Source of the DNA: an uncultured Ruminiclostridium sp.
Lineage (GTDB): Bacteria > Bacillota > Clostridia > Oscillospirales > Ruminococcaceae
Reading direction: 5' to 3'
NCBI GenBank assembly: GCA_947630175.1
Contig: CANRGJ010000007.1
Coordinates: 1 to 64,000 of the forward strand
Length of the DNA stretch: 64,000 nucleotides
Within the stretch, counting starts at the first letter, position 1; each line of letters starts with the position of its first letter. The notes under the pieces are model-generated. The model had not been told where the DNA came from. It did no database searches and saw only the letters and a list, made by a program, of their open reading frames with translations. Both the position numbers and the translations under genes were made by a program. Shown in pieces: positions 36,804-50,661 of this stretch.

Positions 36804-38888
36804 ATGAACAAGGGTATCCGTTATTTCGCCGCTTTTGTTTCAGCTATTATGTTTAGCCTTTCTCTGCCGCAGGTAAGCGCTGCGCAGGAGAAAAAGAACG
36901 TGGATCTCACTTCTGAGGAGGAAGCGTATATATCGTCTCATTCCACCCTGAAGGTGGGATATGTTCAGGACCGCATACCTGTTTCCTTTTCCAATGAGGA
37001 CAACCAGTTTGACGGCATATCTCTGCATATCCTTGACAGAATAAGCGAGCTTTCGGGATTGAAATTTGAATACGTCCCTCTCCCTGCGGGCGACGTTACA
37101 TACGACTATCTTTTAAACGGCGGATTTGATCTTGTCACCAGCGTTGAATACAACGAGGAGAACAAAAAAGCCAACGGTATACTTATAAGCGAGCCGTACT
37201 TTTCAAGCCGCAAGGTGGTAGTTGCAAAGGACGACCTTGATTTCAGATACGACGGACATTGGACAGTCGCCGTTTCCACAGGCTCGCAGACGCTGAAAAA
37301 GGTGCTTGCCGCCTCTTTCCCTAACTTTGAGCTGAAGGACTGCGAAACCATAACCGACTGCTTTGACGCCGTAAACAACGGCACTGCCGACCTTATGATA
37401 CAAAATCAGTTCGTGGTGGAATACTGGCTCTCCAAGCCCGCATACGAAAATTTGAAGGTAATTCCCGTAGTGGGACTTGACGACAAGCTGTGCTTTTCCG
37501 CCGTCGTTCCTTTCGGGGAGGGAAGCGAGGAGGCTCAGGCGGAGGGTCGTGTACTTATCAGCGTGCTGGACAAAACGATAGAGTGTATGTCCGAGGACGA
37601 GGTGACCAACTTCATCATACAGGGCACAATGGAAAATCAGTACAAGTACACCTTCTCCGATTTTGTGAGCCGTTACCGCTATTCTTTTATTCTGGTGATA
37701 ATTGCGCTCATCATAATCGCCCTGCTTGCAATTCTGCTTTTCCGCCTGCGCATACGCTTTATCCGCAGCAAGGCGGAGGCAAAGGCAAAGGGAATGTTCC
37801 TTTCCAGTATGAGCCACGAGATACGAACGCCGCTGAACGGGCTTATCGGTCTTAACTATCTTATGTCACGGAATTTGGACAATAAGGATAAGATGAAAGA
37901 ATATCTGAACCAGTCCTCCGTCACCGCAAAATATCTCCTTTCCCTTGTGAACGATATTCTCGATTCCTCCAAGCTGGAGGAAAACAAGCTGGAGCTTGTG
38001 AGCCGACCTGTCGACCTTGAGCTTGTTATTGAAACGGTAAGCTCTATCCAGCTTAATGCAATAAACGACAAAAAGCTGAAATACACCGTTCATTCCGATA
38101 TGAAATATCCTTACGTCACAGGCGACGATGTGCGCATACAGCAGGTGATACTTAACGTTCTCGACAACGCCTGCAAATTCACCTCAGAGGGTGGAAAGAT
38201 CGACCTTTACCTTGAACAGGAAAAGAGAGACGACGGAAAGATACTGACCTCAGTTACCATAACCGACACGGGAAAGGGAATGAGCGAGGAATTTCAAAAG
38301 CAGATATTCGACCTTTTCTCTCAGGAGCTTGAAACGGTATCAAAGGGCAACAGAGGCACAGGGCTCGGCCTTTCCATAAGCCGCCGGCTGGCTCTGCTTA
38401 TGGGCGGCGACCTTACCTGCGAAAGCAAAAAGGGCAAGGGCAGCTCCTTTACCTTCACCTTTGCCGCAGACCCCGCAGAAAAGCCTGTTTCTTCTGAGGA
38501 AAAAACTCCTTCTCCCCACAGCAAAAGCTCCCGCATCTTAGTAGCGGAGGACAACGAGCTTAACGGCGAGATAATGATAGAGCTTCTTCAAGGCGAAGGA
38601 CTTGAAGCGGACCTTGCAGAAAACGGGAAAAAAGCCTTTCAAATGTTCAAAAATTCTCCCGCAGGAACCTACGGCGTTATCCTTATGGATCTTCTTATGC
38701 CCGAAATGGACGGCTTTGAGACCGCTAAAGCAATACGCTCCCTGGACCGTGAGGACGCAAAGACGGTGCGCATTTTCGCCTGCACCGCAAATTCCTTTGC
38801 CGAGGACAGAGACAAGGCTCTCGCAAGCGGTATGGACGATTTCATCGCAAAGCCCATAAACGTTGAGGAACTGCTGAGAAAAATATAA
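36804..38888 (+). CDS. Hybrid sensor kinase: SBP_bac_3, HisKA, HATPase_c, REC
   Basis: A 694-residue protein. Signal peptide to about residue 27 (SLSLPQVSAAQ), one SBP_bac_3 domain at about 48-270 (LKVGYVQDRIPVSFSN... GFDLVTSVEYNEENKK), membrane helix at about 291-313, H-box SSMSHEIRTPLNG with His near 337, ATPase boxes (LNVLDNACKFTS, DTGKGMSEEF, GTGLGLSISRRL), and a C-terminal receiver with phospho-acceptor in VILMDLLMPEMDGF near residue 628. Ligand is probably an amino acid or small organic acid. It has its own promoter and terminator, upstream of the larger signalling operon. Confidence 0.93.
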   Translation: MNKGIRYFAAFVSAIMFSLSLPQVSAAQEKKNVDLTSEEEAYISSHSTLKVGYVQDRIPVSFSNEDNQFDGISLHILDRISELSGLKFEYVPLPAGDVTYDYLLNGGFDLVTSVEYNEENKKANGILISEPYFSSRKVVVAKDDLDFRYDGHWTVAVSTGSQTLKKVLAASFPNFELKDCETITDCFDAVNNGTADLMIQNQFVVEYWLSKPAYENLKVIPVVGLDDKLCFSAVVPFGEGSEEAQAEGRVLISVLDKTIECMSEDEVTNFIIQGTMENQYKYTFSDFVSRYRYSFILVIIALIIIALLAILLFRLRIRFIRSKAEAKAKGMFLSSMSHEIRTPLNGLIGLNYLMSRNLDNKDKMKEYLNQSSVTAKYLLSLVNDILDSSKLEENKLELVSRPVDLELVIETVSSIQLNAINDKKLKYTVHSDMKYPYVTGDDVRIQQVILNVLDNACKFTSEGGKIDLYLEQEKRDDGKILTSVTITDTGKGMSEEFQKQIFDLFSQELETVSKGNRGTGLGLSISRRLALLMGGDLTCESKKGKGSSFTFTFAADPAEKPVSSEEKTPSPHSKSSRILVAEDNELNGEIMIELLQGEGLEADLAENGKKAFQMFKNSPAGTYGVILMDLLMPEMDGFETAKAIRSLDREDAKTVRIFACTANSFAEDRDKALASGMDDFIAKPINVEELLRKI

Positions 38889-38896
38889 TAAGCTAC

Positions 38897-38924
38897 GCTC
38901 CCGCTGAAAGGCGGGAGCATTTTT
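38897..38924 (+). terminator. Terminator after the SBP-kinase gene
   Basis: GCTCCCGC-CTGAAAGG-GCGGGAGC type stem followed by ATTTTTC. Confidence 0.75.
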
Positions 38925-38991: not shown

Positions 38992-39020
38992 TTGACATAA
39001 TCTTCTTTTAGTTATATAAT
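38992..39020 (+). promoter_or_regulatory. Promoter of the c-di-GMP/phosphorelay operon
   Basis: TTGACA (38992-38997), 17 bases, TATAAT (39015-39020): perfect sigma-A consensus. It probably drives the five genes 39120-47834, none of which has another obvious promoter. Confidence 0.8.
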
Positions 39021-39119: not shown

Positions 39120-40160
39120 ATGGGAACGGAGCATAACGATTACTGGATATTGGTCATAGACGACGACGCCGCAAATCTTACGATGGCGAACACCATATTA
39201 AGCTCCGAAGGTATGAGAGTAAGCTGCGTAAAATCAGGCGAGGCTGCTCTTAAATTTTTGCGCGGCAACAAGCCTGATCTGATACTGCTTGACGTGCATA
39301 TGCCGGGAATGGACGGCTTCGCCACCATAGCCGCACTAAAGGAAAACAAAGCCACCGCAGACATTCCCGTTATCTTCCTCACCGCCGACGACGACAGCGA
39401 CACCGAAACAAGGGGACTTCAAGCGGGAGCTATGGACTTTATCACCAAGCCCTTTATGGCGGACATTCTCCTGCTCAGGATAAATCATATAGTTGAGCTC
39501 ACCCGCTTGCAAGCGGATCTTGCCCACGAGGTAGAGGTAAAAACAAGGGAAGTAACTCACCAGCATAAAAAGCTGGAAAAGCTGTCAATGCAGATAGTTA
39601 TGGCATTGTCAGGCGCAATAGACGCCAAGGACACCTATACCAACGGTCATTCCGCCAGAGTAGCTGATTATTCCCGCAGGATAGCTGAAATGGCGGGCTT
39701 TTCCAAGGAGATGCAGGACGATATCTATATGATAGGACTTCTTCACGACGTTGGAAAAATAGGTATCCCCGACGCTATCATAAACAAGCCCTCACGCCTT
39801 ACCGACGAGGAATTTGCGATAATCAAGACCCACCCTGTTCTGGGAGAAAAGATACTTGAAAAGATAGAGGAATTTCCCAAGCTGATCACAGGAGCAAAGT
39901 ACCACCACGAGCGCTATGACGGCAGGGGCTATCCCGACGGCCTGTCAGGGGAGGAGATTCCCGTTGAAGCGAGGATAATCGCAGTAGCCGACGCTTACGA
40001 CGCTATGAGCTCAAAAAGAGCGTACAGAGGAGTTATCCCCCAGGCTCAGGTGAGAGCCGAGGTGGAAAAAGGAAAAGGCACCCAGTTCGACCCCGTATTT
40101 GCCGACATTATGCTGTCAATGATAGATGAGGACAAAGAATATGAAATGTGCGAGAAGTAG
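39120..40160 (+). CDS. Response regulator with HD-GYP domain (c-di-GMP phosphodiesterase)
   Basis: A 346-residue protein: receiver at residues 8-125 (LVIDDDAANLTM, phospho-Asp in LILLDVHMPGMDGF, Lys in ITKPF), short coiled coil at 130-155, and HD-GYP at 157-340. The metal site is complete: GHSARVADYSRRIA, LLHDVGKIGIPDAI, IKTHPVLGEKIL and KYHHERYDGRGYPDGLSG, and the GYP motif is intact, so c-di-GMP hydrolysis is expected. First gene of the operon, twelve bases before the kinase-Hpt gene; one of the operon's kinases is its likely phosphodonor. Confidence 0.93.
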   Translation: MGTEHNDYWILVIDDDAANLTMANTILSSEGMRVSCVKSGEAALKFLRGNKPDLILLDVHMPGMDGFATIAALKENKATADIPVIFLTADDDSDTETRGLQAGAMDFITKPFMADILLLRINHIVELTRLQADLAHEVEVKTREVTHQHKKLEKLSMQIVMALSGAIDAKDTYTNGHSARVADYSRRIAEMAGFSKEMQDDIYMIGLLHDVGKIGIPDAIINKPSRLTDEEFAIIKTHPVLGEKILEKIEEFPKLITGAKYHHERYDGRGYPDGLSGEEIPVEARIIAVADAYDAMSSKRAYRGVIPQAQVRAEVEKGKGTQFDPVFADIMLSMIDEDKEYEMCEK

Positions 40161-40171
40161 GCGGTGATTTT

Positions 40172-42919
40172 ATGAGCAACAAGGAAAAAGGGCAGACGTC
40201 ATACCTTATTGTGCTGATTTGCTATACCTTTCTGGCAATTGCGCTGGGCGCCGAGATAATTCTTAACGGCACCTCGATGATGATGCTTGTCCAGCTTGCG
40301 GCGAAGCTTGTCATCTGCTGGACTATACATTTTATCAAAAAAATACCGTACAGCGTGGAAAAGTGGATATCCTACGCCCTGCTGCTGCACGGCTTTCTGA
40401 TATACGGTATGAGCCCCGCACATATCCTGAACCTTGCGCCTTTGATAGTGGGACTTACCGCCCTTTATTATGCGGTGGAGATGTACGGACTTATCACCAT
40501 AAACACTGTGGTTTACTTCGTTACGGTCATCGGAAATCTTTTGCTCCATCAAAACGATTTTGACTTCACCCCCTCGTTTATAACGAGCTTAGTCGCAGGG
40601 GGAATTTTCGTCTGCCTTTCCGCATACGTTGCGAAGCTGCTGCGTGAAAGACGTGCAGGCGAAATGAAAGAAGCGAATGAAAAGATAGAAAAGCTGGAGG
40701 AGGAGAACCGCAGGACCGAGGACTTCCTCACCAACGTTTCCCACGAGCTTCGCACGCCTATAAACGCAGTAACAGGTCTTACCACCGTAATGCTGAAAAA
40801 CGAGGAGGACGCCGACAAGCGTGAAAATCTCTTTTCCGTGCAGAAAGCGGGCTATCGCCTTTTCGGACAGATAGAGGATATCCTTGATTATACGGAGATA
40901 GACACGGAAAAAGTGACCGTCAGTGAGGACGCATATATGCTTTCCTCCCTGATAAACGACATTATTTCCGAGCAGAATATGACCGAGGGCAAGGAAAATC
41001 TGGAGCTTATCTTTGACATTGAGGCAAAGATACCCGCAGTGCTTGTTGGCGACAGCAAAAAGATAAAGAAGATAATAAAGCACCTTGTTGACAACGCCGT
41101 AAAATTCACCGAAGAGGGCGGCGTTTACGTCAGGATATACGCCTTGAAGAAGTCTTACGGCGTGAACCTTTGCATACAGGTAAAGGACACGGGGATAGGA
41201 ATGGACGCCGAGAGCCTTTCCAAGATAACCGAAAGGTTTTACCAGTCCAGCGGCGGCCGTGACCGCAGGTCTGGCGGGCTCGGTCTGGGACTTCCCATAG
41301 TTTACGGAATGGCTGCCGCCATGAACGGCTTTGTCCATGTGGAAAGCAAGGCGGGAAGCGGCACCGAGGTCACCGTCAGCATACCGCAGAAGGTTGCGGA
41401 CGAATCAGCGGGAATGAAGGTGGAAAACCCGTCCAAGCTGTGCCTTGCCTGCTATCTTATGCCTGAGAAATACAAAGTTCCCGAGGTGCGTAAATTCTAC
41501 GACAGAATGATAACCAACATCGCCAGAGGTCTTGACGTTTCCGTTCACAGGGTATTTTCCCGTGACGAGCTGGAAAAGCTGGTATCTATGTACCGTCTGA
41601 CACACCTTTTCCTTGCGGACGAGGAATACGAGGCGGACAGCAGTTATATCGAACATCTTGACAGCAGCATACAGGTTATCCTGATAGCCGATGAAAATTA
41701 CCGCCCCAAGGAAAACAGCAGGGTAAAGATACTTCACAAGCCTTTCTACTGTTTCCCCGTGGTGAACGTACTCAACAGCGACACCACCGAAGAGCTTGCT
41801 ATCCAGGGCAGAAGAATGATATGTCCCGACGTTAAGGTGCTTGTTGTTGACGACGAGCCGATGAACCGAATGGTAGCCGAGGGAATGTTAAAGGATTACC
41901 AGATAACCGTCCGCACTGCGGGCAGCGGTATGGAGGCTATCTCTATCTGCGAGAATGAAGAATTTGACGTTCTATTCCTGGACCACATGATGCCCGAAAT
42001 GGACGGCGTGGAAACGCTGAAACAGCTTCGCAGGCTGAAAACGGGCTCCGCCGATATGTTCACGGCGATAGCCTTTACCGCAAACGCCGTCAGCGGCGCC
42101 AGGGAAATGTTCCTGCGCGAGGGCTTTGACGAGTTCTTGTCCAAGCCCGTTGAAGCGCCCGAGCTTGAGCGTGTCCTGCGAAAGGTACTTCCCAAAGCCC
42201 GCATAAAGTTCATTGAGGAACGGGAAACTGTAAGGGAAAATCAGTCCTTCTCCACACAAAAGCAGTCCCCTCAGGAAAACCGCCCCGACGAGATAGCCGC
42301 CCTTGAAGCCGCAGGGATAAACACCGCAGCCGCTTTAGGCTATTGCAGGAACGACAGGGAATTTTACGTTCAGCTTCTGCGCAAATTCGTTTCCGACGCC
42401 GATTACAAGGCGGGAGAGATAAATAAATATTTCGGCAAGGGCGATTACGAAAATTACCGCATACAAGTCCATGCCTTGAAAAGCTCCGCCAAAATGATGG
42501 GAGCAGACCAGCTTTCCAATTCCGCCAAGGATATGGAGACCGCCGCCAAGGACAAGGACATAGACTACATACTTGCAAACCACAACGCTTTAATGGAAAT
42601 GTACGCTGACGCAGTTAAGCTGATAGGCGAAGCCACAGGCGACGCGCAAAGCGAGGAGGACGACACTGCCGCCGAGGGAACGGAGATAACGCAGGAGGAA
42701 CTGCTCTCCTACCTTGACGAGCTTCACTCCTGCTTTGACACCTACGAGGCGGATAAGGCGCAGAATTTAATAGAGGAGCTGAGCAAGACCGTTTACAGCG
42801 GAAAGTCCGTCAAAGCCCTCCTGCGCGCCGTCAAGCAGGACGTGGAGGACTTTGAGTACGAAGCGGCGGCTGAAAAGGCGACTGCTCTTGCAGACAAGGT
42901 GAAAGGCGGTGAGGTGTGA
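40172..42919 (+). CDS. Membrane hybrid kinase with REC and Hpt domains
   Basis: A 915-residue protein; ATG 40172 follows AGGCGGTG. Five to six membrane helices (residues 8-165), coiled coil (165-185), H-box TNVSHELRTPINAVTG with His near 191, ATPase boxes (LVDNAVKFTE, DTGIGMDAES, GGLGLGLPIVYGM), a degenerate receiver-like stretch at about 425-545 lacking a clear acceptor, a true receiver at about 553-675 (VLVVDDEPMNRM, VLFLDHMMPEMDG), and an Hpt domain with phospho-His in YRIQVHALKSSAKMMG near 768. The His-Asp-His layout is a complete phosphorelay that can pass phosphate to the receivers encoded beside it. The stop overlaps the next ATG (TGATG). Confidence 0.92.
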   Translation: MSNKEKGQTSYLIVLICYTFLAIALGAEIILNGTSMMMLVQLAAKLVICWTIHFIKKIPYSVEKWISYALLLHGFLIYGMSPAHILNLAPLIVGLTALYYAVEMYGLITINTVVYFVTVIGNLLLHQNDFDFTPSFITSLVAGGIFVCLSAYVAKLLRERRAGEMKEANEKIEKLEEENRRTEDFLTNVSHELRTPINAVTGLTTVMLKNEEDADKRENLFSVQKAGYRLFGQIEDILDYTEIDTEKVTVSEDAYMLSSLINDIISEQNMTEGKENLELIFDIEAKIPAVLVGDSKKIKKIIKHLVDNAVKFTEEGGVYVRIYALKKSYGVNLCIQVKDTGIGMDAESLSKITERFYQSSGGRDRRSGGLGLGLPIVYGMAAAMNGFVHVESKAGSGTEVTVSIPQKVADESAGMKVENPSKLCLACYLMPEKYKVPEVRKFYDRMITNIARGLDVSVHRVFSRDELEKLVSMYRLTHLFLADEEYEADSSYIEHLDSSIQVILIADENYRPKENSRVKILHKPFYCFPVVNVLNSDTTEELAIQGRRMICPDVKVLVVDDEPMNRMVAEGMLKDYQITVRTAGSGMEAISICENEEFDVLFLDHMMPEMDGVETLKQLRRLKTGSADMFTAIAFTANAVSGAREMFLREGFDEFLSKPVEAPELERVLRKVLPKARIKFIEERETVRENQSFSTQKQSPQENRPDEIAALEAAGINTAAALGYCRNDREFYVQLLRKFVSDADYKAGEINKYFGKGDYENYRIQVHALKSSAKMMGADQLSNSAKDMETAAKDKDIDYILANHNALMEMYADAVKLIGEATGDAQSEEDDTAAEGTEITQEELLSYLDELHSCFDTYEADKAQNLIEELSKTVYSGKSVKALLRAVKQDVEDFEYEAAAEKATALADKVKGGEV

Positions 42920-45588
42920 TGAAACTGAAAAAAATGTTTCAAAGCCTGCTGGGCGATTACAATTATTCCCTCCAGGAACGCTTGTTCCGTCTGATTACAA
43001 TAATCGGTCTGGTGGGACTTGCGCTGGGCATAGCGGTAGGCTGCTGCTCAGGGGAAAGCCTTACCAACCTTACCGCAATGATAGTCGCTTTCGTCCTGCT
43101 GGGAATACTGGTGTTCTTCACTATCCGCACGCATAAAATACAGCTTGGCGCAATAATCGTTTCTGCGATTGCGCTATACATTGTTCTGCCCTTTAACTTC
43201 ATCACAGCGGGCGGGATATACGGCGGCGGACCTACCTGGTTCATTCTGGGATTTGTGCTTGCAACTATCGTTGTAGAGGGCAAGGCGAGGTATATTCTGC
43301 TTGCAGGCGGATATATCGTCTTTCTGGTATGCTATTACGTTGCATACTTCTACCCTGAGCTTATAGTCCAGCACACTCTTGAAATGGCATATATCGACTC
43401 TCTCGCCACCCTTACGGTGGTATCGGTAGTGACCTGCGGAATGCTGCTGTTCCAAAATGCGATCTACCGCAAACAGAACGAAAAGACCGAACAGCAGAAA
43501 AAGCAGATAGAGGAATTAAATCAGGCTCAGAACCGCTTTTTCTCCAGTATGAGCCACGAGATACGCACCCCCATAAACACTATAATCGGTCTGAACGAGA
43601 TGATACTCCGCGAGGACGTTTCCGACGAGGTAGCGGAGGACGCACAGAATATCCAGAGCGCAGGAAAAATGCTCCTCTCCCTTATCAACGACATTCTTGA
43701 TATGTCAAAGATAGAGTCGGGGAAAATGGACATCGTGCCTGTCACCTACGACGTTGGCGCAATGCTTTCCGACATTGTGAATATGATATGGGTGAGAGCC
43801 AAGGAAAAGGGGCTGGAATTTCACATCAACGTGGAGGACAGCATACCCGCCCGCCTTTGCGGGGACGAGGTCCGCATAAAGCAGATACTTATCAACCTGC
43901 TGAACAATGCGGTGAAATACACCTCCGAGGGCTCAGTCACCCTGTCCATTCAACAGCGTCAGGTGCAGGACGACACTGTTTACATAGCATATTCCGTGGC
44001 TGACACGGGAATGGGCATAAAAAAGGAGAACATTCCTCATCTTTTCAGCGCTTTCCGCCGTGTTGACGAGGAAAAGAACCGCTACATCGAGGGAACAGGT
44101 CTGGGTCTTTCCATAGTAAGACAGCTCGTCACCCTTATGGGCGGGGATATTGAAGTGAACAGCGTATACACCAAAGGCTCCACCTTTGTAGTTACCATTC
44201 CTCAGAAGATCGAGGGCGAGGGCAGACTGGGCGAGCTTGATTTGGAAAAGCGCCACACAATGGGCGTTAGAGAGCATTACAGAGCATTGTTCGAGGCGCC
44301 CAAGGCGAACGTCCTCATAGTTGACGACAATGATACCAACCTTATGGTCGCGGCAAAACTGCTCCACGATACAAAGGTTGCGGTGGACACCGCCTCAAGC
44401 GGCGCACAGTGCCTTTCCAGAACTGAGAACAGGCGCTACGACGTTATATTTATGGATCACCTTATGCCTGTTATGGACGGGATAGAGTGCCTGCACCTTA
44501 TCCGCACCCAGACAGGCGGACTGAACCAGGAAACTCCCGTAGTCGTTCTCACCGCCAACGCAGGCAGCGATAATCAGGAGCTGTACAGACGCGAGGGCTT
44601 TGACGGCTACCTGCAAAAGCCCGTCAGCGGCATACAGCTTGAAACGGAGCTTTTAAAGCACCTGCCGAGAGAGATAGTGCAGATGAACAACACCGAGCTG
44701 TTCAGCGATACGGTAGTAGGACCTGTTCTGGGACACAAGAAAAAACAGCTTATTATGATAACCACCGACAGCGTCAGCGACCTGCCTGCAGAGCTTGCGG
44801 AAAAGTACAACATAGCCGTTCTCCCATATCACGTAATGACCGAGGGCGGCGATTTCAGGGACGGCGAGGAGATAGAAACGGACGGTATCCTGTCCTATCT
44901 TTCAGAAAAGGACAAAAAGGTACATTCCGAAGAACCCAAGGTCGCAGATTACGAGGCGTTCTTTGCGGAACAGCTTACCAAGGCACAGCATATAATCCAC
45001 ATAGCTATGGCGAAAAACGCCAGCAAGGGGTATGAAAAGGCGCTTGAGGCGTCTGGAGCCTTTGACAACGTAACGGTAGTTGATTCGGGTCATCTTTCCA
45101 GCGGAATGGGTATGGTTGCGCTTTACGCCGCCGAATACGCCGCAGGCGGAATGGAGGTGGACGCAGTCCTCTCCGAGATAGAACGTATCAAAGCAAAGGT
45201 AAATACCAGCTTTATCGTTGGCAGCACCGAGTATCTTGCCCGTTCGGGAAGGATCTCCTCAAAGATAAACGCCATATGTGAAGCCTTTATGCTCCACCCT
45301 GTCATAATGCTGAAAAAGAGCAGTATGACTGTGGGCGCTATACGAATGGGAACACGGGAAACTATCTGGAAGAAATATATACGCTCCACCCTGCGTTCTC
45401 CTTCAAGAATAGATAAAAGACTTTTGTTCATCACCTATGCGGGACTTCGCCCCGAGGACCTTGACGAGATAGCGGCAAAGGTGAGAGAAAAGATAAGTTT
45501 TGACGAGGTAATATATCAGAAGGCCTCGCCTGCAATTTCCATAAACTGCGGACCTGAAAGCTACGGCCTGCTGTTTATGGAGAAATGA
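42919..45588 (+). CDS. Hybrid kinase fused to a C-terminal DegV (fatty-acid-binding) domain
   Basis: An 889-residue protein. Six membrane helices (about 22-180), coiled coil, H-box SSMSHEIRTPINTIIG with His near 212, ATPase boxes (LLNNAVKYTS, DTGMGIKKEN, GTGLGLSIVRQL), receiver at about 463-585 (VLIVDDNDTNLM, VIFMDHLMPVMDG), then from about residue 610 a complete DegV-like domain: IMITTDSVSDLPAELAEKY, VLPYHVMTEGGDFRDG, VTVVDSGHLSSGMGMVAL, FIVGSTEYLARSGRISS, and terminal NCGPESYGLLF. DegV/FakB proteins bind fatty acids for FakA kinase. The C-terminal His that contacts the carboxylate (HxGPG) is Asn here and the SGT loop is changed, so a sensing role is more likely than carrying acyl chains. 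Confidence 0.92.
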   Translation: MKLKKMFQSLLGDYNYSLQERLFRLITIIGLVGLALGIAVGCCSGESLTNLTAMIVAFVLLGILVFFTIRTHKIQLGAIIVSAIALYIVLPFNFITAGGIYGGGPTWFILGFVLATIVVEGKARYILLAGGYIVFLVCYYVAYFYPELIVQHTLEMAYIDSLATLTVVSVVTCGMLLFQNAIYRKQNEKTEQQKKQIEELNQAQNRFFSSMSHEIRTPINTIIGLNEMILREDVSDEVAEDAQNIQSAGKMLLSLINDILDMSKIESGKMDIVPVTYDVGAMLSDIVNMIWVRAKEKGLEFHINVEDSIPARLCGDEVRIKQILINLLNNAVKYTSEGSVTLSIQQRQVQDDTVYIAYSVADTGMGIKKENIPHLFSAFRRVDEEKNRYIEGTGLGLSIVRQLVTLMGGDIEVNSVYTKGSTFVVTIPQKIEGEGRLGELDLEKRHTMGVREHYRALFEAPKANVLIVDDNDTNLMVAAKLLHDTKVAVDTASSGAQCLSRTENRRYDVIFMDHLMPVMDGIECLHLIRTQTGGLNQETPVVVLTANAGSDNQELYRREGFDGYLQKPVSGIQLETELLKHLPREIVQMNNTELFSDTVVGPVLGHKKKQLIMITTDSVSDLPAELAEKYNIAVLPYHVMTEGGDFRDGEEIETDGILSYLSEKDKKVHSEEPKVADYEAFFAEQLTKAQHIIHIAMAKNASKGYEKALEASGAFDNVTVVDSGHLSSGMGMVALYAAEYAAGGMEVDAVLSEIERIKAKVNTSFIVGSTEYLARSGRISSKINAICEAFMLHPVIMLKKSSMTVGAIRMGTRETIWKKYIRSTLRSPSRIDKRLLFITYAGLRPEDLDEIAAKVREKISFDEVIYQKASPAISINCGPESYGLLFMEK

Positions 45589-45615
45589 TAAACAGAAAAA
45601 ACGGAGACAAATGAA

Positions 45616-46419
45616 ATGAAGAAACTTTTTGGAACGATATCCGCGCTTCTTGCGGCGGCAACGCTATTTGCAGGCTGCTCAGGCGGAGGGACGGCAGAGT
45701 CTGTGCTGAAAGAGGGACAGTCCGATATTCAGTACATAAAGGACAAGGGGACGTTTATTATAGGAATAACGGACTACGCCCCTATGGACTTTAAGGACGG
45801 CGATAATTGGACAGGTTTTGACGCGGAGCTTTCCACGGCATTTGCCGAGGAGCTTGGCGTAACTCCCCAGTTTGTGGAGATAGACTGGGACAAGCGCACA
45901 GGACTCCTTCAAAGCGGCGCTATCGACTGCATATGGAACGGTATGACCTTGACGGAGGAGCTTCAGCAGGAAATCGACTGCTCTCAGCCTTACGCCTCCA
46001 GCGGTCAGGTTATAGTTATGCAAAAGGATAAGCTGGAAAAATACGAGACCGTAGAGCAGTGCCAGCACCTTCTGTTTACAGTAGAGGGCGGCTCATCAGG
46101 CGAAGCAGTCATAAAAGAACTTAAATACCGCTACACCCCTTATGAAACTATGAAGGAGACCCTGCAAAGCGTATGCGACAACAAAGCTGACGCAGCGGTG
46201 ATAGACATAATTATGGCGGGATATTATTCCGCAGGCGAGAACGAATTTTCCCAGCTTGGATACAAATTCCTGCTGAATGATGAAAAGATAGGCGTAGGTC
46301 TTCGCAAAGGCTCCGACCTTACGGATAAGGCGAACGAGTTTTTGTCTGAAATGACTTCAAGCGGAAAAATGAACGAGATAGCCGAAAAATACGGCATAGC
46401 GGACGCGGTGCTTGACTGA
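45616..46419 (+). CDS. Amino-acid-type solute-binding lipoprotein (SBP_bac_3)
   Basis: A 267-residue protein with lipoprotein signal (MKKLFGTISALLAAATLFAGC) and a single SBP_bac_3 fold: FIIGITDYAPMDFKD, WTGFDAELSTAFAEELGV, AIDCIWNGMTLTEE, and GVGLRKGSDLTDKANEF. No permease or ATPase genes adjoin it; it sits 27 bases after the kinase-DegV gene and before a diguanylate cyclase. It may present a ligand to one of the membrane kinases instead of an ABC importer. Anchored on the outside of the membrane. Confidence 0.92.
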   Translation: MKKLFGTISALLAAATLFAGCSGGGTAESVLKEGQSDIQYIKDKGTFIIGITDYAPMDFKDGDNWTGFDAELSTAFAEELGVTPQFVEIDWDKRTGLLQSGAIDCIWNGMTLTEELQQEIDCSQPYASSGQVIVMQKDKLEKYETVEQCQHLLFTVEGGSSGEAVIKELKYRYTPYETMKETLQSVCDNKADAAVIDIIMAGYYSAGENEFSQLGYKFLLNDEKIGVGLRKGSDLTDKANEFLSEMTSSGKMNEIAEKYGIADAVLD

Positions 46420-46457
46420 AAAAGCGTCTGTAAAAAATTTAAGGAGCAGCTTTCACA

Positions 46458-47834
46458 ATGAAAACAATACTTGTTGTAGACGATGACAATATGAATCTTG
46501 CCACTACCAGAGAGGTACTCAGCGACAGCTACAAGGTCGTTTTGGTGAAAAAGGGTCAGCAGGCGCTGTCATACCTTGAAAACGGCGACTGCGACATTAT
46601 CCTGCTGGATATAAATATGCCCGAAATGGACGGCTTTGAGGTAATGGAAAAGATCCGCGCTATGGAAAGGCACGTTGACACACCTGTTATTTTCCTTACA
46701 GGGGACAACGACGCCGAGACCGAGTCCCGCTGCTTCAAGGCGGGAGCCATAGATTATATAGCAAAGCCCTTTGTTCCCGCCGTAATACTTTCAAGAATAG
46801 GCAGGATACTTGAGCTTGAGGAGCTTCGCCGCAGTCTTGCCGACAGACTGGAGCAGAAGATAAAGGAAGTTTCCGACATCAAGAGCAAAACCAACCGTGA
46901 CGTCCTCACAGGTCTCTGGAACAGGGAATACACCGAGGAAGCGGTCAACACTATGCTTAATGGCGGCATAAAGGGCGCCGTTATGATGATAGATATGGAC
47001 AACTTCAAGCTGATAAACGACAACTACGGTCACATAGCGGGCGACAAAACGCTGAAAATGTTTGCCGACACTATGAGGACATATTCCTCCGAAGGGGACG
47101 TTCTCTGCCGTATCGGCGGCGACGAGTTCGTGGTATTTGTTAAAGGCGTTACTTCAAAAGCGGAGCTGAGCAACCGTGCGGCAGATATTATCCGCGATAT
47201 ATGCGCAAAGATAAAGGACTGCGGCTACGAGACCGACACCTCTGTTTCCATAGGCATAGCCAAAGCGCCCGAGGACGGAGCAGAATTTGCCAAGCTGTAC
47301 AACGCCGCAGACAAGGCTTTGTATTACGTTAAGCAAAACGGCAAAAACTCCTACCACTTTTTCAGCGACAAGCTTGCAGCGGAACACGACCGCGGCGAAA
47401 AGACCGTGGATCTGAAATATCTTAAAGACCTTATGAACCGTGCCGACAGCGGCAAGGGCGCATATCTTCTTGACTTTGAGAGCTTCAACCACGTTTACAA
47501 CTTTATCCGCCGCTTTGTTGAGCGCAGTAACAGAGACGTGCAGACCCTTCTTTTCACCCTCAGTGAAAACAGCAATGCGACTCCCGACTCCACCGAGACC
47601 GAAGCGGCAATGGAAATGCTGGAAAGCTCCATATACACCTCTCTGCGCCGTTCCGACATCTCCACCAGATATTCCAGCAGGCAGATGATAGTCATTCTTA
47701 TGGACGCCAACAGCGTAAACGGCGATATGGTCGCCGAGCGAATAATCAGCAATTTCCACAAGCTGTACACTGGGAATAAAATACGCATAGATTACGGCAT
47801 AGCCTGCCTTGACAGCAAGTCCGGCACCGTATGA
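46458..47834 (+). CDS. Response regulator diguanylate cyclase (REC-GGDEF-GGDEF-like)
   Basis: A 458-residue protein: receiver at 1-120 (TILVVDDDNMNL, phospho-Asp in IILLDINMPEMDGF), linker helix, GGDEF domain at about 152-310 (TNRDVLTGLWNRE, DMDNFKLINDNYGHIAGD, LCRIGGDEFVVF). The catalytic motif is intact; the RxxD inhibitory site is absent (SEGD at that place), so product inhibition is not expected. Residues 325-458 look like a second, degenerate GGDEF fold (AYLLDFESFNHVYNFIRRF... AERIISNFHKLY) without the motif. Makes c-di-GMP, opposing the HD-GYP protein at the head of the same operon. Confidence 0.93.
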   Translation: MKTILVVDDDNMNLATTREVLSDSYKVVLVKKGQQALSYLENGDCDIILLDINMPEMDGFEVMEKIRAMERHVDTPVIFLTGDNDAETESRCFKAGAIDYIAKPFVPAVILSRIGRILELEELRRSLADRLEQKIKEVSDIKSKTNRDVLTGLWNREYTEEAVNTMLNGGIKGAVMMIDMDNFKLINDNYGHIAGDKTLKMFADTMRTYSSEGDVLCRIGGDEFVVFVKGVTSKAELSNRAADIIRDICAKIKDCGYETDTSVSIGIAKAPEDGAEFAKLYNAADKALYYVKQNGKNSYHFFSDKLAAEHDRGEKTVDLKYLKDLMNRADSGKGAYLLDFESFNHVYNFIRRFVERSNRDVQTLLFTLSENSNATPDSTETEAAMEMLESSIYTSLRRSDISTRYSSRQMIVILMDANSVNGDMVAERIISNFHKLYTGNKIRIDYGIACLDSKSGTV

Positions 47835-47851
47835 CCGTATGACAGAATAAA

Positions 47852-47890
47852 AAATTACCGCCTGAGTAAAACTCAGACGGTATTTTTTAT
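47852..47890. terminator. Bidirectional terminator between converging genes
   Basis: ACCG-CCTGAGT-AAA-ACTCAGA-CGGT stem flanked by AAAAAATT and ATTTTTTATT, serving the signalling operon and the minus-strand fusion gene. Confidence 0.75.
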
Positions 47891-47898
47891 TTTCATTT

Positions 47899-50430
47899 TT
47901 ACGCTGTAACGATACCCGCCGCCTCGATAAACTCAGGCAGCTTCTTTGCGTCCTCACGCATTTTGTATTTGAGTATCTTTCCCGCCGCATTCATCGGGAA
48001 GCTGTCCACGAAAACAACGTATTTAGGCGTTTTGTGCTTTGCCATATGAGCCATAACGTATTCCTTTATCTCCTCGGCGGTACATTCAACGTCAGGCTTT
48101 TTAATAATGCACGCCATAATTTCTTCGCCGTAAGCCTTGTCGGGAACGCCGATGACCTGCACGTCCTGGACTTTGGGGTAAGTGTAGATAAAGTCCTCTA
48201 TCTCTTTAGGATAGATATTTTCGCCGCCTCTGATTATCATATCCTTGATGCGGCCTGTAACCTTAAAGTTTCCGTCAGGCAGACGGCGGAGCAGGTCTCC
48301 GCTGTGGAGCCAGCCGTCCTTGTCGATAGCCGCCGCGGTAGCCTCAGGCATTTTGTAGTAGCCTTTCATTATATTGTAGCCTCTCGCCACAAACTCTCCG
48401 TCCACGTTGTCAGGGCAGTCCTCCCCCGTTTCAGGGTCGACTATCTTGCACTCAACGCCAAAGATAGCGCCGCCAACGGTATTTACACGGGTCTCTATTG
48501 AATCGGTGGTCTTTGACATAGTTGTTGCGGGAGAAGCCTCAGTTTGCCCGTAGGTAATGCATATCTCGCTCATATGCATTTTCTCGATAACTTCCTCCAT
48601 CACCTTGATAGGACAGGGAGAACCAGCCATAATTCCCGTTCTCATATAGGAGAAATCCGTCTTGGGAAAATCCTCGTGTCCCAGCATAGCGATAAACATT
48701 GTGGGAACGCCGTGGAAAGCGGTTATCTTTTCCTTATTTATGCAGGCAAGGCTCTTTCTGGGTGAAAATGCGGGGATAGGCGACATAGTTGTGCCGTGCG
48801 TCATAGACGCCGTCATAGCCAGCACCATTCCGAAGCAGTGGAACATAGGCACCTGTATCATCATTCTGTCAGCCGTTGACAAGTCCATACAGTCCCCGAT
48901 AGCTTTGCCGTTGTTCACAACATTGTAATGCGTTAGCATAACGCCCTTGGGGAAGCCCGTAGTCCCGCTTGTGTACTGCATATTGCACACGTCGTCCTTG
49001 TTTATCATAGCCGCCCTGCGGTATACCGCCTCGATAGAGGTGCGCTCCGCTTGCGCCATAGCTTCCTCCCAGGTAAGACAACCCTTTTGCTTTGAATCAA
49101 CGGTTATGATATTACGCAGAAAAGGAAGTCTGCGGCTGTGAATGGGCTTTCCCTCCTCCACCGTTTCCAGCTCAGGGATAAGCTCCTTGATTATCTGAAC
49201 ATAGTTTGAGTCCTTGTATCCGTCTATCATTACCAGCGTATGGGTGTCCGACTGACGGAGCAGATATTCCGCCTCGTGTATTTTGTAGGCGGTGTTCACC
49301 GTTACCAACACTGCGCCTATCTTTACCGTCGCCCAGAAGGTGATGAACCACTGTGGAACATTGGTCGCCCAAATCGCCACATGGTCGCCTTGCTTTACAC
49401 CAAGAGAGATAAGCGCCCTTGCAAAGGTGTCCACGTCGTCTCTGAATTCGGGATACGTCCTGCTGTAATCGCACTCCGTATATCTGAACGCCCACTGGTC
49501 GGGAAATTCCTCGCATATTTTATCCAGCACCTGAGGCATCGTAAGGTCGATAAGGCGGTTTTTCTCCCAGGGATAATATCCGTCGCCACGGACGCTTTTC
49601 TGCAAACGCTCCGTTCCCGCCTGACTGCCTAAAAACTGCGACATAAAGTGCATATAGTGGGGAAGCACTATACCCGCCTCCGACAGCTCGGGAGAATACT
49701 GACGCAGCCATTCCAGAGAGATATACCCCTCATAGTTCAGCGAGCGCAGCGCCTTCATATATTCCTCCATAGGAGGAAGGTCGCCCTCGCCCACAAGACG
49801 GTATTCCACCTTTCCGTCCTTCATCACCGAGTCCTTGATATGGGTATGCTTAATGAATGCGCCTAAATTTTTTATAGTAGTTTCGGGAGATTCCCCAAAG
49901 AAACGGTACGGGTGGTTCCAGTCCCACAAAGCCGCCACGCTGTCGCTGCCTATCTGCGCCAGAACGTCCGCCAGCCTTGCCGTGTCGCCGTAAACGCCGT
50001 TTGTCTCGATAAGCAATGTTACTCCCGCCTCCTCCGCTATGGGAGCAAGCACCTTCATCGGCTCGATAACGTATTCGTCAGGGAAATCCTCCTCAGGCTG
50101 TCCCTTCAGATCCCCCAAAACTCTGACGTACGGTACCTCCAGCTCCTTTGCAAGAGCGATATATTTTTTCAGCTCCTCAATGCTTTCCTGATGACGGTCG
50201 GCGTACTTCAGCGCGCACCCCGAGGAAAGACAGCATATCTCCAGCTTAAGTCTTTTCAGGGTAGCCTTTGTTTCTGCAATATTTTTCGGCAGGAACGGCG
50301 AGCGTGGAGAAAATATGTTGTCCCCCAGACCCCGCACTTCTATCCCCTGAAAGCCGAAGTCCTTGGCAAGCGAATAAATTTCCGCCCATGAATATTCAGG
50401 GCAGGCAAGAGTTGAAAAGGAAAGCTTCAT
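47899..50430 (-). CDS. Fusion of sugar-phosphate isomerase/epimerase-like TIM barrel and acyl-CoA synthetase
   Basis: An 843-residue protein; ATG 50430 follows AAAGGGG. Residues 1-275 are an AP-endonuclease-2-type TIM barrel of the xylose-isomerase-like superfamily (KLSFSTLACPEYSWAEI, FGFQGIEVRG, TLLIETNG, ALWDWNHPYR, IKHTHIKDS, YISLEWLR) with metal-binding Glu, Asp and His. Residues 300-843 are an AMP-forming ligase: P-loop YTSGTTGFPKGVM, ICITYGQTEASP, LHSGDLLRR, GRIKDMIIRGGENIYP and catalytic Lys in NAAGKILKYKMRED, closest to medium-chain fatty-acyl or FadD-like enzymes. Single-gene transcription unit. The isomerase may supply or recognise a sugar-acid substrate, but the link between the two activities is unknown. 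Confidence 0.92.
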   Translation of the reverse strand: MKLSFSTLACPEYSWAEIYSLAKDFGFQGIEVRGLGDNIFSPRSPFLPKNIAETKATLKRLKLEICCLSSGCALKYADRHQESIEELKKYIALAKELEVPYVRVLGDLKGQPEEDFPDEYVIEPMKVLAPIAEEAGVTLLIETNGVYGDTARLADVLAQIGSDSVAALWDWNHPYRFFGESPETTIKNLGAFIKHTHIKDSVMKDGKVEYRLVGEGDLPPMEEYMKALRSLNYEGYISLEWLRQYSPELSEAGIVLPHYMHFMSQFLGSQAGTERLQKSVRGDGYYPWEKNRLIDLTMPQVLDKICEEFPDQWAFRYTECDYSRTYPEFRDDVDTFARALISLGVKQGDHVAIWATNVPQWFITFWATVKIGAVLVTVNTAYKIHEAEYLLRQSDTHTLVMIDGYKDSNYVQIIKELIPELETVEEGKPIHSRRLPFLRNIITVDSKQKGCLTWEEAMAQAERTSIEAVYRRAAMINKDDVCNMQYTSGTTGFPKGVMLTHYNVVNNGKAIGDCMDLSTADRMMIQVPMFHCFGMVLAMTASMTHGTTMSPIPAFSPRKSLACINKEKITAFHGVPTMFIAMLGHEDFPKTDFSYMRTGIMAGSPCPIKVMEEVIEKMHMSEICITYGQTEASPATTMSKTTDSIETRVNTVGGAIFGVECKIVDPETGEDCPDNVDGEFVARGYNIMKGYYKMPEATAAAIDKDGWLHSGDLLRRLPDGNFKVTGRIKDMIIRGGENIYPKEIEDFIYTYPKVQDVQVIGVPDKAYGEEIMACIIKKPDVECTAEEIKEYVMAHMAKHKTPKYVVFVDSFPMNAAGKILKYKMREDAKKLPEFIEAAGIVTA

Positions 50431-50661
50431 TTTTTTGTCCCCTTTGATGAAATTTAAACATAGCCGCAGGAAAAGCCTAAACACACATTTTCCTGTCAAA
50501 TAATAACATATATAAATAATATATCACTTGAAAGCGCTTTTGTCAACAGCAAAGCCGCAGTAACGCCCCATAAAGGCAAGCATAAAAATGAATTTTTCCA
50601 CAAAAATGAAACCCGCTAAAGGTACGCTTTTGTTAATACCATTTCAAAATAAATAAAATCC

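Follow-up and report, generated by a model that had tools for sequence, protein, structure and literature searches.

A membrane hybrid histidine kinase carrying a C-terminal DegV domain in a c-di-GMP two-component operon of an uncultured Ruminiclostridium sp.

Proteins of the DegV family are known to act as FakB carriers. In the window analyzed here, a stretch of 64,000 nucleotides from a contig of an uncultured Ruminiclostridium sp., a DegV domain lies at the C-terminal end of a membrane histidine kinase with receiver, within a cluster of genes for making and breaking c-di-GMP. This raises the question whether such a join is real and, if it is, what a domain of the FakB family contributes to a phosphorelay. 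In this study, the reading frame, its operon, its spread among relatives and the residues of its DegV domain were analyzed.

The reading frame starts with the ATG at 42919 (the GTG at 42916 is another possible start), ends with the stop codon 45586-45588 and is uninterrupted. It encodes membrane helices followed by HisKA, HATPase_c, REC and complete DegV, these domains being assigned with Pfam and TIGR profiles, with the following features:

42919..45588, + strand: HK-REC-DegV, membrane hybrid histidine kinase with C-terminal relay-type DegV domain, 889 aa
42919..43488, + strand: N-terminal membrane domain, residues 1-190 (MASE11-like match only below threshold, E 2.5)
43525..43722, + strand: HisKA, residues 203-268, with phospho-acceptor His213 (Pfam)
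43861..44208, + strand: HATPase_c, residues 315-430 (Pfam)
44311..44646, + strand: receiver (Response_reg), residues 465-576, with Asp513 (Pfam)
44752..45582, + strand: DegV domain, residues 612-888 (Pfam PF02645)

For the membrane domain, no Pfam family scored above its cut-off. The remaining kinase part has everything expected of a hybrid histidine kinase, namely the HisKA histidine, the HATPase boxes and the receiver aspartate and lysine. In an alignment of 81 rows, His213 was kept in 75/75 rows having a letter at that column, Asp513 in 78/79 and Lys567 in 80/80. The order TM-HisKA-HATPase-REC and the catalytic residues are common to hybrid kinases of the BarA/ArcB type, a name taken from profile matches. 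The DegV domain matched PF02645 from profile position 2 to 279 of 280 with 156.9 bits (cut-off 27) and TIGR00762 with 170.3 bits (cut-off 99.7). By this full-length match it belongs to the DegV/EDD superfamily and to the same family as FakB, and its closest solved chains by sequence are stand-alone DegV/FakB proteins (Thermus DegV 2dt8, S. aureus FakB2 4x9x and others). An earlier note on this DNA had proposed a hybrid kinase fused to a complete DegV fold from about residue 610, and the single frame, with its Pfam DegV match beginning at 612 and covering the whole profile, confirms this proposal.

A frameshift or an assembly joint ahead of the DegV domain, named in the same note as a finding that would refute the proposal, was ruled out, as the frame is open across residues 583-612 and the identical join was found in many independent assemblies. 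More generally, nearly all named carriers of the fusion are metagenome-assembled genomes, judged by their titles, and this could point to an assembly or binning artefact or to a chance fusion without function. We regard such an explanation as negligible, since the fused gene occurs in the best 80 of 554 named loci (three of them cut by contig ends) and in genomes from at least three families, the catalytic residues are intact, the upstream kinase is constant and dN/dS is low. For the DegV part, dN/dS was 0.043 and 0.044 in comparison with two near relatives, and 0.13 and 0.25 for the linker in the same two comparisons; these ratios indicate purifying selection on the DegV part.

The arrangement of receiver and DegV was searched across relatives and recurs in the genus, the family and two other families. 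In the genus, at least 16 of 71 genomes gave matches extending to the end of DegV, at least four of these hold two or three copies, and in one genome the match begins at residue 203. In the family sample, an ORF ending in a relay-type DegV (E <= 1e-60, length at least 600 aa) was present in 19 of 297 genomes, including that of the window. The class sample (391 genomes) yielded the fused gene in eight genomes spread over two other families, while the phylum sample (398 genomes) added to the window's own genome only two carriers, both from one of those two families. The best 80 of the 554 related loci from named genomes comprise 69 for TM-HK-REC-DegV, eight for HK-REC-DegV with the TM part unmatched, cut or in a different frame, two for REC-DegV and one for DegV only, the last three all running past contig ends. 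Their labels are mostly Lachnospiraceae or other Clostridia metagenome assemblies, and many names contain 'Lapin', presumably for rabbit. These 80 loci were retrieved with patterns that include the NCG motif and the region of His694, and conservation of Asn876, Cys877 and His694 within them therefore carries no weight. The same gene was also found under the labels Treponema or Avitreponema (L136, L146, L148 and L162) and once each under Bacteroides (L118) and Thermoflexaceae (L117), which may reflect transfer, mis-binning or mislabelling. At three loci (L038, L098 and L197), the N-terminal part of the DegV kinase and the remainder are in separate ORFs, either by a real split or by sequence error.

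In the window, the DegV kinase is the third of five genes in the same direction, reaching from 39120 to 47834. The other genes and the candidate signals around them are:

38897..38918, + strand: terminator-like hairpin upstream of the operon (12 terminator-like sites in the region versus 11.2 in shuffles, i.e. no enrichment)
38992..39020, + strand: promoter-like site TTGACA-17-TATAAT preceding REC-HD-GYP (12/12 match to sigma-70, consensus only)
39120..40160, + strand: REC-HD-GYP, c-di-GMP phosphodiesterase type, HD and GYP motifs present
40148..42919, + strand: HK-REC-Hpt companion kinase (profile matches)
45616..46419, + strand: family-3 solute-binding lipoprotein, lipobox LFAGC by sequence reading
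46458..47834, + strand: REC-GGDEF, diguanylate cyclase type, GGDEF motif present
47856..47882, both strands: terminator-like hairpin after REC-GGDEF (same caution from the shuffles)

The genes for REC-HD-GYP and HK-REC-Hpt overlap or abut according to the start codon chosen, and the TGA stop of HK-REC-Hpt and the ATG of the DegV kinase have one base in common (TGATG). The gene of the binding lipoprotein is separated by 27 bases from the DegV kinase and by 38 bases from REC-GGDEF. Promoter-like site and flanking hairpins would fit a single transcript, as far as matches to consensus can tell. Co-transcription of the DegV kinase with c-di-GMP enzymes, assumed in the earlier note, is likely, because the genes overlap, abut or are closely spaced downstream of a full sigma-70 consensus. 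With REC-GGDEF and REC-HD-GYP, both with catalytic motifs, beside phosphorelay kinases, the cluster qualifies as a c-di-GMP two-component operon. An Rfam scan of 34000-54500 for RNA regulators returned no family at gathering score. At its C-terminus, the REC-GGDEF protein carries a degenerate second GGDEF-like domain, which is below the Pfam cut-off and recurs in relatives.

The neighborhood was then counted in three overlapping sets of loci, from named genomes, genus and family, in each case only at loci with enough sequence. HK-REC-Hpt is located directly upstream of the DegV kinase at 70/74, 18/20 and 15/16 loci, respectively. An HD-GYP gene 2-4.2 kb upstream was present at 50/66, 10/17 and 3/16 loci, a binding protein directly downstream at 31/75, 5/18 and 1/15, and a GGDEF gene within 1.5 kb downstream at 14/69, 5/17 and 1/12. 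Since these neighbors vary more, the constant partner of the DegV kinase is the Hpt kinase. The GGDEF gene of several other operons lies upstream instead, at times in one ORF with REC-HD-GYP. Such single ORFs of about 790-810 aa were seen at L043 (3641-6007), L047 (4104-6464), L048 (3448-5826) and L049 (14155-16578); the predicted products unite c-di-GMP synthesis and breakdown in one protein.

That the two kinases belong together is indicated best by one genome (G608, locus L328). There, the companion kinase extends only some 20 residues beyond its receiver and is devoid of an Hpt, and the DegV kinase bears a C-terminal Hpt behind DegV (PF01627, 31 bits, cut-off 24.6). The Hpt has switched gene yet remained within the kinase pair, and this is the best single sign, from a single genome, of two kinases forming one relay. 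In having an Hpt, the upstream companion resembles kinases of the BarA/ArcB type with a C-terminal Hpt. The DegV kinase differs from this type, as its DegV occupies the spot expected for Hpt or for nothing, and at L328 DegV is located between REC and Hpt.

DegV genes that are not fused gave a second line of evidence. From the family search, 34 rows of non-fused DegV were read with their surroundings; 27 fall into the clade of the fused domains, and seven outside. Directly upstream of all 27 free clade members is a receiver-bearing gene, in 26 cases with a kinase core (the remaining one, L222, is cut at the contig end), and 20/27 have an adjacent Hpt match. Outside the clade, free DegV had a receiver-bearing gene directly upstream in 0/7, 0/28 and 0/20 cases (0/55), where the 28 controls were chosen from the top rows of the DegV match list and the 20 from lower rows, neither at random, and where upstream room was short at some loci, e.g. 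341 bases for L338. A GGDEF or HD-GYP gene was found within 6 kb of 4/55 non-clade DegV genes (L245, L275, L344 and L352), at no locus adjacent.

In trees with the Asn/His site (see below) masked, the clade of the 27 free and the fused rows had a support of 100 in a quick tree and 100/100 in a careful tree, for which 21 of the 27 were used. It also stays whole with 20 further rows added and the site unmasked (FastTree support 0.80). The fused rows form one group with moderate support (85 in the quick tree, 86/76 in the careful tree), and fusion of DegV to the second kinase probably arose once. Seven free clade members sit after an HK-REC gene, or in the case of L222 a contig-cut REC piece, which ends 16-27 aa past REC. 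Such split kinase genes were considered as fusion precursors and rejected: the quick tree set five of the seven DegV beside the fused clade, the careful tree did not, and a kinase tree also failed to place their kinases beside the fused kinases.

For a residue-level comparison, the window domain was aligned to DegV chains of solved structure, among them S. aureus FakB2 (4x9x). Numbering of the 6mh9 chain fits the residue numbers of FakB1 after allowing for one tag residue. Canonical rows have a K-V-R-(G/T) motif, which fixes the Arg205 site at column 810; one PDB alignment prints it one column off. The HxG site of the window is N876-C877-G878 and its SGT loop is S702-K703-G704. Thr61 and Ser93 of FakB, which provide the head-group hydroxyls, correspond to S670, a conservative change, and S702. 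Together with R778 at the Arg173 site, these two agree with FakB, while M810 at the Arg205 site, with R809 one residue earlier, and N876 in place of the HxG histidine, the carboxylate-site residue, depart from it. Unlike the stand-alone FakB carriers, the domain is fused to HK-REC, and its clade is found in two-component operons.

The earlier note had seen a possible sign of new function in the Asn and the altered SGT loop. Both are present, with Asn at the N876 site in 60 of 61 fused rows, but the Asn is not special, and one fused relative, L325, has His. As a mark of kinase-linked DegV it fitted the family rows (27/27 versus 0/7) until a second control broke it, in which 9/20 further stand-alone DegV proteins, including one from the window's own genome (L002/L335), have Asn at HxG. 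All 20 retain both FakA-facing arginines, and none adjoins a kinase; His-to-Asn alone is therefore no sign of new function. Non-clade stand-alone proteins with Asn and both arginines include L335, L341, L342, L347, L348, L351, L352 and L354.

More informative are the arginines. As described in PMC9136124, the Fak reaction depends on Arg173 of FakB1, a residue conserved in every FakB, and FakA and the membrane are bound through Arg205. Arginine at the Arg173 site was found in 58/88 rows inside the relay-type clade versus 72/72 outside, and at the Arg205 site in 5/88 versus 70/72, based on a 140-row residue table combining named-genome loci and rows of the HMM search, with three near-duplicates among the 88 clade rows, and on the 20 further controls. 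These losses speak against DegV as an output, by which receiver phosphorylation would govern fatty-acid uptake or release and hand-over to FakA for phospholipid synthesis. DegV does lie directly behind REC, the usual place of output domains, the window retains R778, and its genome encodes a full FakA; on balance, we consider an output of this kind quite improbable. The window protein may still contact FakA, as R778 is kept and R809 adjoins the lost Arg205 site.

The hydroxyl sites behave differently from the arginines. Ser or Thr occupies the Thr61 site in 88/88 clade rows, and the Ser93 site is Ser in 70/88, being replaced or displaced in 15 of the 61 fused rows. As the arginine sites are eroded while the hydroxyl sites persist, coupling to FakA appears relaxed or lost with the domain kept. 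The marks of the clade are the kinase neighborhood and the relaxed or lost arginines, not the Asn. Persistence of the hydroxyls also bears on the main rival explanation, in which DegV would be a ligand-free protein-contact module docking a partner, either loaded FakB or the companion kinase, onto the relay. FakA offers a precedent, since its C-terminal FakB-like domain is likewise a DegV-related contact part within a larger enzyme and binds FakB, not fatty acid, as described in PMC9136124. Moreover, FakA is accompanied in the host by two other DegV proteins, and columns 787, 793 and 870, near conserved motifs, switched letter in the clade. The FakA domain, however, is without the tunnel-roof insertions and belongs to a fatty-acid kinase, not to a phosphorelay (same paper), whereas the window domain matches the DegV profile over nearly its whole length. 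With the hydroxyls largely kept as well, we judge a pure contact module unlikely, though less so than the output feeding FakA.

Since a full FakB-type domain has kept most hydroxyls and has relaxed or lost the FakA arginines, DegV is most likely a regulatory module. From what can be read in the sequences, namely architecture, operon, clade, conservation, loss of FakA arginines and mobility of the Hpt, we infer a direction of phosphate flow, a ligand, its effect and a direction of control. Our preferred reading, with modest confidence, is of a two-kinase phosphorelay that sets c-di-GMP and is itself tuned by a DegV module no longer coupled to FakA. The DegV kinase would be one arm of this relay, and HK-REC-DegV and the translationally coupled HK-REC-Hpt would form one unit with a single common Hpt. 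Via this Hpt, phosphate would pass to the receivers of REC-GGDEF, which makes c-di-GMP, and of REC-HD-GYP, which breaks it. The DegV clade would have been recruited into two-component operons, in some as a separate protein and in others fused to the second kinase. DegV itself would act as a cytoplasmic regulatory module, probably with a small amphiphile bound at the membrane face, and its occupancy would shift the kinase/phosphatase balance of the relay. Tentatively, one may go further and see in relay-type DegV an intracellular receptor dedicated to an amphiphile such as a fatty acid or a lysolipid, which feeds the two-kinase phosphorelay and is free or fused depending on the species. If true, many gut Clostridia would have in this receptor a means to couple c-di-GMP directly to the state of membrane or dietary lipids.

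The DegV clade seems to have moved out of fatty-acid activation and into phosphorelays. Among open-licence PMC papers, none was found to describe a kinase-DegV protein or a DegV/c-di-GMP operon. The statement in the earlier note that DegV proteins are normally stand-alone holds for FakB, but is too broad for the family, as multidomain DegV proteins are already mentioned in PMC12288450. A kinase-DegV protein together with a c-di-GMP operon suggests an undescribed coupling of bacterial lifestyle switching to a lipid-like signal. The sequence mark of one arginine site lost and another relaxed, in combination with a conserved kinase partner, makes a non-FakB function of DegV directly testable, and for gut bacteria that are mostly uncultured, a relay-type DegV could identify an input to their c-di-GMP signalling.

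Two further reading frames flank the operon in the window. Just upstream, with the terminator-like hairpin in between, 36804-38888 encodes a further hybrid kinase (SBP-HK-REC), whose family-3 binding domain is extracellular. Downstream, on the reverse strand, a xylose-isomerase-like TIM barrel and an acyl-CoA ligase are joined in one ORF (47899-50499), and the same join, 874 aa in length, is also present in a close relative (L034, 13715-16336).
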